Virus record (IMG/VR): IMGVR_UViG_3300029268_000137
Span: 1-23,268 of that record
Origin: a virus
Reading direction: 5' to 3' (one strand)
DNA length: 23,268 nt
Below the pieces are notes generated by a model. That model had not been told where the DNA came from, made no database searches, and worked only from the letters and a program-made list of their open reading frames with translations. Shown here one piece after another: positions 3 through 16,780 of this stretch (its first letter is position 1; every line of letters starts with the position of its first letter). Made by a program: the position numbers and the translations under genes.

Positions 3-221
3 GGTTATATTTATACTAAATTAACTCTTGATATTCGTGAATGGGTGTGTCCGGTTTGTGGTGAAAAACATGACCGTGATGTAAATGCAGCAAAAAATAT
101 AAAAAATTGGCCGATGGAATGTCGGTTGTTGAACGTGGAGGCCGGCTCTGTGGACGAACGTTTCATTTCGATGAAACCTAAGAAGCATCTTGTCTGTGAA
201 GCGTTAAAAAAGATGGGTTGA
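3..221 (+). CDS. tnpB: TnpB-like RNA-guided nuclease, C-terminal 72 residues (partial)
   Basis: An open frame enters from the window edge and ends at TGA (219-221). The translation contains [18 protein letters not shown], the C-terminal half of the TnpB zinc-finger (CPxCG) followed by the HDRDxNAAxNI motif that supplies the last RuvC acidic residue. This signature is diagnostic for TnpB/OrfB proteins of IS200/IS605/IS607 elements, which are omegaRNA-guided DNA nucleases. The tail after the RuvC III motif is about 40 residues and its codons (GGCCGGCTC, GTGGACGAACG) are GC-rich compared with phage genes. In this family the region doubles as non-coding RNA scaffold. The catalytic Asp and second zinc-finger half are intact here; the rest of the gene is not visible. 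Confidence 0.9.
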
Positions 222-14893: not shown

Positions 14894-15008
14894 TTTATTT
14901 TTATTTTTATTTTTATATATTAAAAATTCAACAACCGTTTTCTATTATGAAAAAGATTTTAAACTTTTTTTGTTTTTTATTTTATACATTAAAAATATAT
15001 TTAAATTA
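14894..15008. promoter_or_regulatory. Divergent intergenic region between fibre gene and plus-strand island
   Basis: 115 nt, almost pure A/T. On the minus strand TTAATATATA (14923-14914) lies 20 nt before the fibre ATG and is a candidate late-type TATA element. On the plus strand TTTTATACATTAAAAATATA precedes the DUF1599 gene. A plus-strand TTG at 14970 opens the frame earlier, but the ATG at 15009 is the better start. Confidence 0.45.
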
Positions 15009-15542
15009 ATGAATAATACATCCAAACAATTTGATGAAGTTGTAGATAAATGTAAAAATTTGTTCATCAATAAAATGAACGATTATGGAACATCGTGGAG
15101 AATATTAAGACCAACATCTTTGACAGATCAGGTTTATATAAAAGCGTCTAGAATTCGAAGTATTGAAATAAAAAAAATAAATATGGTTAGCGACGGTGTG
15201 GATTCTGAATATATTGGTATTATAAATTATTCAATAATGGCTATAATTCAATTAAAATTTTCATCTGATACACCTTTATCAAATGAAAACATTATAGATA
15301 TTTATACCACAGAAATAAATAACACAAAAGAATTAATGATGAATAAAAATCATGATTATGATGAAGTATGGAGAGAAATGAGAATAAGTAGTTTAACAGA
15401 TATAATTCTACAAAAACTTTTACGAATAAAACAAATAGAAGATAATGATGGTAAAGTTAAAGTATCAGAAGGCTTAGAAGCAAATTATCAAGATATAATA
15501 AATTATTCTATATTTGTACTTATAAGATTATCAGAAAAATAA
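15009..15542 (+). CDS. DUF1599 / Nmad1 (nucleotide modification associated) protein
   Basis: 177 residues made of two tandem copies of the same fold. Copy 1 spans residues 7-83 and contains KMNDYGTSWRILRPTSLTDQ and YIGIINYSIMAIIQL. Copy 2 spans 100-174 and contains KNHDYDEVWREMRISSLTDI and YQDIINYSIFVLIRL. The DYGxSWR...SLTDQ...RI...IINYSI pattern is that of DUF1599 proteins (PF07659), common in Bacteroidetes at this length and listed as a nucleotide-modification-associated domain. The biochemical activity is not established. I chose ATG 15009 over the upstream TTG because family members start close to the first helix. It heads the plus-strand island, 43 nt before the portal-like gene. Confidence 0.8.
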   Translation: MNNTSKQFDEVVDKCKNLFINKMNDYGTSWRILRPTSLTDQVYIKASRIRSIEIKKINMVSDGVDSEYIGIINYSIMAIIQLKFSSDTPLSNENIIDIYTTEINNTKELMMNKNHDYDEVWREMRISSLTDIILQKLLRIKQIEDNDGKVKVSEGLEANYQDIINYSIFVLIRLSEK

Positions 15543-15585: not shown

Positions 15586-16416
15586 ATGGAAGAAGAAAAA
15601 AAAGAAATTTCTTATCAAGAAAAAAGGTATTTAGATAAGAGAAGAATATTAAGACAATTATCTGTAAAAGATGAAATTCGAAATTATTTGGATATAATGG
15701 TTGACAAAATATTTGAAAAATTGAGAGGAAATAATGGAACTATATATTATCCCGGTACATCTTCGGATAATACAGTTTTCGGAAGTATTGGTACTAGTGG
15801 TGGATGGTCTGGTCCTAGTGGATGGTCTGGTCCTAGTGGTGGATGGTCTGGGACTAGTTTTATATCAGATATTGAATTATATAATTATATTAAAATATTA
15901 TTAATTGATGGGTTCGAAGCCTTTGAAGTAATATATGATGAAAGACAAACACAAATTATTGATTTAAATCCAATTGATCCTTGTAATTTATCAAACGATG
16001 ATGAAAAATGGATATTATTTCCAAATAATCAAGATTTAAAAAGAATTTTATCTAAAGATCAAATCATTTATTTATCATATTCAAATGGTGTAGATTCACC
16101 AATGTCTTATGTAGAAGAATTGAAAGAATCATATGAACAAATGAAAAGAATTGAAAATGAATTGGTTGTTAGTAGACTTAATCCCGGTGATGTTTTTAAA
16201 AACATGAATAAAGAAGTCACTTTTAAAGAATTGAAAAGGTCAGATAAAAAATTAAAATTTATGTCAAAAATTCCAAAATCAATTTTAAAGAATGAAATGA
16301 TGAATAGTAATGATATTAGATACAATAAATTTATAGAAAGAATAGTCGAAATATTTACAAATCAATTTTTTGAAGAATTATCAAAAATAAAAAATAATCT
16401 TAATCAAAATGCCTAA
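15586..16416 (+). CDS. Shortened T4-type portal (gp20-like) protein with W/S/G-rich insert
   Basis: 276 residues; full portals of this family are about 500. Residues 16-46 (LDKRRILRQLSVKDEIRNYL...) resemble the gp20 N-terminal helix. 98-130 (ELYNYIKILLIDGFEAFEVI, then IIDLNPIDP) and 152-200 (KRILSKDQIIYLSYSNGVDS, YVEELKESYEQMKRIENELV, VSRL) follow the order of the gp20 wing/stem: a 'dG---y--i' strand, 'l-pidP', 'I-y--sG--d', 'sYl----k-y-ql---ed-lvi-Rl'. The region after it jumps to RYNKFIERIVEIFTNQFFEE, like the later crown helix, so the clip and much of the core are missing. Residues 68-91 are a GGWSGPSG repeat insert. It is either a repurposed portal paralogue or a minimal portal; I am fairly sure of the relationship, not of the role. 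Confidence 0.6.
   Translation: MEEEKKEISYQEKRYLDKRRILRQLSVKDEIRNYLDIMVDKIFEKLRGNNGTIYYPGTSSDNTVFGSIGTSGGWSGPSGWSGPSGGWSGTSFISDIELYNYIKILLIDGFEAFEVIYDERQTQIIDLNPIDPCNLSNDDEKWILFPNNQDLKRILSKDQIIYLSYSNGVDSPMSYVEELKESYEQMKRIENELVVSRLNPGDVFKNMNKEVTFKELKRSDKKLKFMSKIPKSILKNEMMNSNDIRYNKFIERIVEIFTNQFFEELSKIKNNLNQNA
15802..15858 (+). repeat. 18-bp tandem repeat encoding GWSGPS
   Basis: GGATGGTCTGGTCCTAGT is repeated exactly at 15802-15819 and 15820-15837, with a third variant copy after a GGT at 15841-15858 (GGATGGTCTGGGACTAGT). It encodes a Trp/Ser/Gly-rich insert in the portal-like protein and is far richer in G than the gene around it. Confidence 0.9.
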
Positions 16417-16780
16417 ATCGAAAACAAATAAAAAAAGAAAAAATAAAGTTTTGGCTTATAGTCAAAACATAAAGAATCGTCAGAAAAAATTCAGAAGTGA
16501 ATTTATTAAGAAATTACAAGAATCACATAATAAGGATTTGGAAAACAAAGTGAATGAAACATCAGATAGTAATGTTAATGATGTTAATGAATTTGGTGAA
16601 TTTGGTTTGGAAAATTTAGATCAACAATCAATAATACAATCAAACGATTTAAGTGAATTCAGCCTAGATAATTTACCAACAACGGAATCATCAGATTTAA
16701 GTGAATTTAGTTTAGACAATTTACCAATTGTTGAACAAACAGAACCATCACCAGATATTTCAGGTTCATATTCCAAGTAA
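16409..16780 (+). CDS. Basic/acidic repeat protein, possible scaffold-like partner
   Basis: 123 residues; its ATG overlaps the end of the portal-like gene by 8 nt. The N-terminal 46 residues are strongly basic (PKSKTNKKRKNKVLAYSQN). The rest is acidic and low complexity, with three copies of an EF-x-L-x-NL motif: FGEFGLENLDQQ (about 63-74), then two near-identical copies of DLSEFSLDNLP. There is no fold I recognise. In T4 the gene after portal gene 20 encodes a small prohead core protein (gp67), so a scaffold/core role is conceivable by position; this is inference only. Binding to nucleic acid through the basic end is another option. Confidence 0.65.
   Translation: MPKSKTNKKRKNKVLAYSQNIKNRQKKFRSEFIKKLQESHNKDLENKVNETSDSNVNDVNEFGEFGLENLDQQSIIQSNDLSEFSLDNLPTTESSDLSEFSLDNLPIVEQTEPSPDISGSYSK

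Follow-up and report, generated by a model that had tools for sequence, protein, structure and literature searches.

A half-length T4-type portal paralogue outside the head module of huge phages

The portal is otherwise a single-copy gene in named phages: matches to a T4-type portal fell at 2,403 places in 2,399 named phage records, and the only records with more than one portal-like place were two entries of a 735-kb phage, which have three each and so account for the four extra places. The stretch of viral DNA analysed here (hereafter the window; 23,268 nt, IMG/VR record IMGVR_UViG_3300029268_000137) carries, amid fibre genes, an open reading frame of 276 codons (15586–16416, plus strand) that is related to the T4-type portal, gp20, at half length. 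Its presence raises the question of whether such a protein could be a working portal and, if not, what it is kept for.

A portal relative without clip and crown

Judged by sequence, the portal resemblance of the 15586–16416 frame is far beyond chance. It matched one place in the 735-kb genome LR756501 (tblastn, E=1e-34), the full-length portal of that phage (blastp, E=4e-29) and the full-length portals of other huge phages (tblastn, E=7e-17). Pfam Portal_T4 (PF07230) and phrog_213 gave no direct match to the window protein at E≤1, and a PF07230 search within the window record was silent, as were its controls, and so weighs neither way. Both profiles matched 18 of the 21 aligned family members, 18 being the count of full-length rows, and the best full-length relative reached E=4.5e-73 with PF07230. 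Because the window protein has no direct profile match, its homology rests on full-length intermediates and on fold. In the PDB, a sequence search with a half-portal-only profile returned chance matches, and the PADLOC matches of the half portal and of its downstream neighbour were weak (E 0.003–0.005).

Half portals were found in four further huge-phage sequences: LR756501 (342 aa), G001 (IMGVR_UViG_3300037087_000760, 211 kb), G002 (IMGVR_UViG_3300025162_001865, 32 kb) and G016 (IMGVR_UViG_3300042261_001186, 130 kb). A complete 735-kb genome has been reported (PMC7162821), and LR756501 is one of those brought to completion by curation. Among viral contigs, scanning with the half portal as a single sequence recovered no relative and alignment queries did; a search of genome contigs added only three weak relatives, all of the full-length type. 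With orthologues in four other huge-phage sequences and dN/dS of 0.3–0.5, the frame is evidently a real gene.

To locate the missing half, the half portals were aligned to the T4 gp20 sequence taken from a T4 genome record, with domain borders from the cryo-EM study (PMC4493910). The gp20 segments occur in the same order. The wing domain corresponds to residues 11–172 (15616–16101), split by an insert and modelled with pLDDT mostly of 70–92 outside it; it is followed by the equivalent of stem helix a5 (YVEELKESYEQMKRIENELVVSRL; 16108–16179), a short linker in place of the gp20 clip, stem a7 and tunnel loop (16180–16305), and the first half of wing helix a8 (DIRYNKFIERIVEIF...) with the C-terminus, which has no crown (16306–16413). 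The 80-residue clip of gp20 is replaced by 7–21 unrelated residues in the half portals, and its 74-residue crown aligned with 0–2 residues. T4-type portals measure about 524–608 aa against 276–342 aa for half portals, which lack clip and crown and have a shortened tunnel loop. The structure models, all single chains, are consistent with this assignment: an AlphaFold2 model of the L012 orthologue (pLDDT 78), which has the predicted wing-and-stem portal fold, aligned with T4 gp20 at Z 16.6 over 221 residues (gp20 74–428). T4 gp20 was the best fold match, and 8dgf, an Avs4-bound portal structure, was another fold relative. Model confidence for the window protein was low in both the insert and the linker that replaces the clip.

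The insert is a G/S/W-rich segment that starts at residue 69 and is predicted to be disordered. Its repeat array (15789–15858) has an 18-bp unit, encodes GTSG-GWSGPS-GWSGPS-GGWSGTS, with GWSGPS repeats from residue 73, and contains the tandem repeat GGATGGTCTGGTCCTAGT, exact at 15800–15839. The insert belongs to the window protein only (0 of the 4 other half portals have one), and an N-terminal extension present in all four others is missing from it. An origin of the insert as a recent copy of fibre DNA was unsupported, as no stretch of at least 12 bases was common to the insert and the fibre gene or the rest of the window. An earlier note, made from the letters of the window, had described a half-length T4-type portal relative with gp20-like segment order, no clip region and an 18-bp tandem repeat encoding GWSGPS after residue 68. 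BLAST E values, segment order and predicted fold bear out the relationship, the gp20 alignment agrees on the clip, and the repeat is present as described; the match to PF07230 by which that note had proposed to check the assignment was found in 18 full-length intermediates and not in the window protein itself.

An ancient extra copy, outside the head module

Both a half and a full-length portal (608-aa frames) are carried by LR756501 and by G016. In a tree built on shared columns, the four half portals then known formed one clade with 100/100 support, apart from all full-length portals. The closest full-length kin are the LR756501 portal and its relatives (Mahaphage clade, PMC7162821), with 33–37% identity over the wing. 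By these comparisons, the half portal is an extra, ancient portal paralogue kept beside the full-length portal in the closest relatives. A full-length portal was found neither on the 23-kb window nor on G001. Capsid and protease genes of full length are likewise missing from G001, which places its head module off the contig. LR756501 and G001 both align with the window across its tail genes, and the window phage therefore belongs to the same group; its own genome presumably encodes a full-length portal. The earlier suggestion of a paralogue with a second portal elsewhere thus holds directly for LR756501 and G016, which have both forms, and by extrapolation for the window phage, represented here by 23 kb. 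In LR756502, LR756504 and LR756500, a single portal of this kind was seen in each.

Portal duplication was also seen in related large phages, many of which have a tandem pair of full-length T4-type portal genes (on contigs of up to 434 kb; L033:6128-9398, L109:6128-9419 and L127:6146-9416 are examples among 64 fetched loci, some of them from the same contig). Here both copies are full length and adjacent. They form two clades in the tree, which points to one ancient duplication, separate from the half-portal event. The tree, with its 100/100 half-portal clade, gives no support to an origin of the half portal in one of the tandem copies. No tandem full-length portals were found among named phage records.

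Unlike T4-type portals, the half portal lies outside the head module, as a second copy beside the full portal. In the window, it is the middle gene of a plus-strand trio flanked by minus-strand fibre genes, an island recognized in the earlier note with its DUF1599 and acidic-repeat proteins. The first gene encodes a DUF1599 (nucleotide modification associated domain 1) protein (15012–15542; Pfam E=1e-55) that starts with ATG at 15012, with a TTG upstream at 14970, and is syntenic in G001 and G002 at 69–70% identity. The third, 16409–16780, overlaps the half-portal stop codon and encodes an 'MPKS' protein with a basic N-terminus and acidic LSEFSLDNL repeats. The order DUF1599, half portal, MPKS is the same in the window, G001 and G002, where the trio stands amid fibre genes. 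In LR756501 and G016, the half portal instead follows a thymidine kinase gene and precedes, after other genes, a HAD gene. In none of the five does it lie beside protease and capsid genes. LR756501 also has a region syntenic to the window operon (258073–259368) that consists of a dNMP-kinase-like gene, a gene for a 126-aa protein and an MPKS gene, without a half portal. At the left edge of the window (3–221), we noted by eye the C-terminal end of an apparent IS200/IS605 OrfB/TnpB-type protein.

Two sequence motifs were noted around the operon. The element TTTTAAACTTTTT (14957–14969, plus strand) lies 51 nt upstream of the DUF1599 ATG, and matches to AAACTTTTT lie 52 nt (G001) and 62 nt (G002) upstream of the DUF1599 start, so that a AAACTTTTT element 51–62 nt before this start is common to the three. 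The second motif, TTTTTAATATATA (14914–14926, minus strand), precedes the start of the divergent fibre gene by about 30 nt. In the window, G001, LR756501 and LR756502 it recurs approximately 28–32 nt upstream of fibre or baseplate genes, and it also precedes the LR756502 portal gene; from the genes downstream of it, it is probably a late promoter. Ahead of the half-portal operon, none of the window, G001 and G002 carried it. In LR756501, the thymidine-kinase operon has ATTTTTAATATAAAG, which comes close to this late-type motif.

The half portal changes fast. Among 80 orthologues compared between LR756501 and G016, the full portal was the most conserved (identity 0.88, rank 80/80) and the capsid protein the second most conserved (0.83), whereas the half portal, at 0.41, was 18th from the bottom; the nearby thymidine kinase and HAD genes stood at 0.65–0.66. 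For the same two phages, dN/dS was 0.07 for the full portal and 0.30 for the half portal, about 4 times as high. Half-portal orthologues overall gave 0.30–0.52 (Nei–Gojobori; dS is high and the values are rough). The substitution pattern thus indicates a gene kept by purifying selection and evolving far faster than the true portal. The open frame in five lineages and these dN/dS values, rough as they are at high dS, speak against a pseudogene or remnant.

Short copies of head genes

Other partial copies of head genes accompany the half portal in these genomes. Comparison of the 995 LR756501 open reading frames with one another revealed scattered short copies of three adjacent head genes: four of portal, three of protease/scaffold and seven of capsid. 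Some are rearranged. W01_48028 is a permuted portal copy with the order N-terminal, clip, then stem pieces, and in W01_276342 distant capsid pieces are joined together. We then searched five sequences for short partial paralogues of the 62 core genes that LR756501 has in common with LR756502. Head genes, whose length share is 6.9%, were the source of 23 of the 29 paralogues found (length-weighted binomial p ~5e-12 for LR756501 alone and 2e-5 for LR756502; since fragments with orthologues in other genomes are not independent, these single-genome values are the safer ones). Short copies as a general trait of all core genes were rejected, because 54 of the 62 have none. Other conserved genes, at 45–65% identity, also lack fragments, which argues that the pattern is not merely one of easier detection. 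Fragments of capsid or portal are also present in LR756502, G001, G015–G018 and others; LR756504 (636 kb) had neither at E≤0.001.

The capsid fragments include W01_276342, 542326, 552409, 565330, 730457 and 145582/145891 in LR756501, 80294, 277261, 315773 and 543010 in LR756502, and 32817, 125652/125854 and 196838 in G001. One conserved form is a 'mini capsid' of approximately 160–196 aa in which the N-terminus, spine helix and last strand are joined; another, present in several large phages, is a paralogue of about 300 aa resembling the C-terminal half of the capsid protein (G001:32817-33782, L256, L257, L258, L261). W01_497197_498567 of LR756501 (456 aa) appears to be a patchwork of DNA polymerase B, capsid and tail sheath, the capsid part recognized by BLAST and the rest by eye. 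The N-termini of some capsid fragments have what we take to be a resemblance to T4 capsid-targeting peptides. Many open reading frames of LR756501, LR756502, G001 and G002 have M..(Y/F)..F.NE-like N-termini, which presumably share this resemblance and would suggest a large internal head proteome. A separate tag-like peptide with the consensus DPYGEE(N)W(E) occurs in 102 copies in 88 of the 995 LR756501 frames (L174–L188), and DP(L/Y/F)GEE in 29 copies in G016 (L355–L361); LR756502, G001, G002 and the window have zero DP[YF]GEE.

What the half portal may do

As possible roles, the earlier note had suggested a decoy, a plug, an inhibitor of packaging in competing phages or a packaging accessory. 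We favour, with a probability of roughly 0.4, the reading that the half portal is a fast-evolving portal mimic used in conflict, as a decoy or an assembly poison, and not a working portal. In T4, the clip binds the packaging ATPase and the neck, and the wing is the main capsid contact (PMC4493910). A protein that keeps the wing and stem core and has lost clip and crown could present a portal core to a portal recogniser without building a functional gate, and it may be made before or apart from the late head genes. The recogniser might be a host sensor of the Avs4 kind, for which the half portal would be a decoy; Avs4 recognises portals (PMC12724215; see also PMC12931631). Alternatively, a related competing phage might be the target, its head assembly being poisoned by a subunit that lacks the motor-docking clip. 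Known Avs sensors are triggered by recognising a phage protein, so a decoy would have to bind without activating. Rapid change and the lack of a late-type motif speak, short of proof, for a role in conflict over a structural one; the full portal present alongside in LR756501 and G016 counts for a mimic over a working portal, and the drawing of the short copies mainly from portal, protease and capsid genes counts in the same direction, as do the single origin of the half portals and their dN/dS below 1. Several points count against conflict: relaxed constraint fits the fast evolution as well, ATTTTTAATATAAAG in the LR756501 operon nearly matches the late-type motif, T4-like capsid-targeting N-termini on some capsid fragments would suit virion proteins, and neither portal nor capsid fragments turned up in LR756504 at E≤0.001.

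The main rival, possible in our estimate though doubtful, is an accessory of the phage's own virion or assembly, whose wing would bind the capsid protein or the true portal and which would help to build, size or plug a very large head. The wing, which contacts the capsid, has been kept, a giant head may require additional parts, and the tandem full-length portals of a separate large-phage clade indicate that extra portal subunits can be useful; other head-derived proteins also have N-termini that resemble T4 capsid-targeting peptides. Yet portal and capsid surfaces change slowly, and a protein that mainly touches them would be expected to change less than the half portal does: between the same two phages, identity is 41% for the half portal, 88% for the full portal and 83% for the capsid protein, its would-be contact. 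The absence of the late-type motif before the operon in three genomes and a neighbourhood of nucleotide-metabolism genes, not a head module, also speak against an accessory. An unlikely alternative is a regulator that joins portal rings or caps monomers and so limits nucleation to one portal per head. In its favour, wing and stem helix a5 are kept and the full portal co-occurs in LR756501 and G016; against it, the partner is the slowest of 80 orthologues while the half portal is fast, and LR756502, LR756504 and LR756500 each showed a single portal of this kind.

We consider it quite unlikely that the half portal is a by-product of genome inflation, in which strongly expressed head genes leave copies that drift, have little function and gradually disappear. 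Many fragments are indeed scrambled patchworks, and the half portal exceeds the true portal fourfold in dN/dS; against drift stand frames open across five lineages, dN/dS well below 1, conserved operon synteny and source genes that are far from random among core genes. The reading of the half portal as the genuine, if divergent, portal of its phage is nearly refuted. The window and G001 have no full-length portal, but the clip needed for the motor and neck docking is missing, both relatives with a head module (LR756501 and G016) also have a normal portal, and the G001 head module lies off the contig.

Returning to the portal mimic, the half portal could be the largest portal member of a wider set. 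We put forward tentatively, as a doubtful but possible extension, that huge Bacteroidota phages keep an arsenal of short, fast-evolving, often patchwork copies of portal, prohead protease-scaffold and capsid genes, as decoys or assembly poisons against host head-protein sensors or competing phages. There is a functional analogy in Ty1 p22, a truncated capsid protein that restricts its retroelement by poisoning assembly; the likeness would be one of working principle only, a truncated copy of an element's own structural protein, and not of homology. For huge phages, our literature search, which covered few subscription papers, returned no account of a second portal, of half-length or tandem ones, or of fragmentary head genes. 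Taken singly, the half portal is a paralogue with the portal fold; taken together, the fragments could amount to more. What these phages have retained is a portal copy without a clip, kept over long evolutionary time despite fast change. Should the head-gene copies prove to be decoys, they would point straight to the systems by which hosts sense phage heads, and to how giant phages evade those systems; as parts of the virion, the copies would instead shed light on the construction of very large heads.
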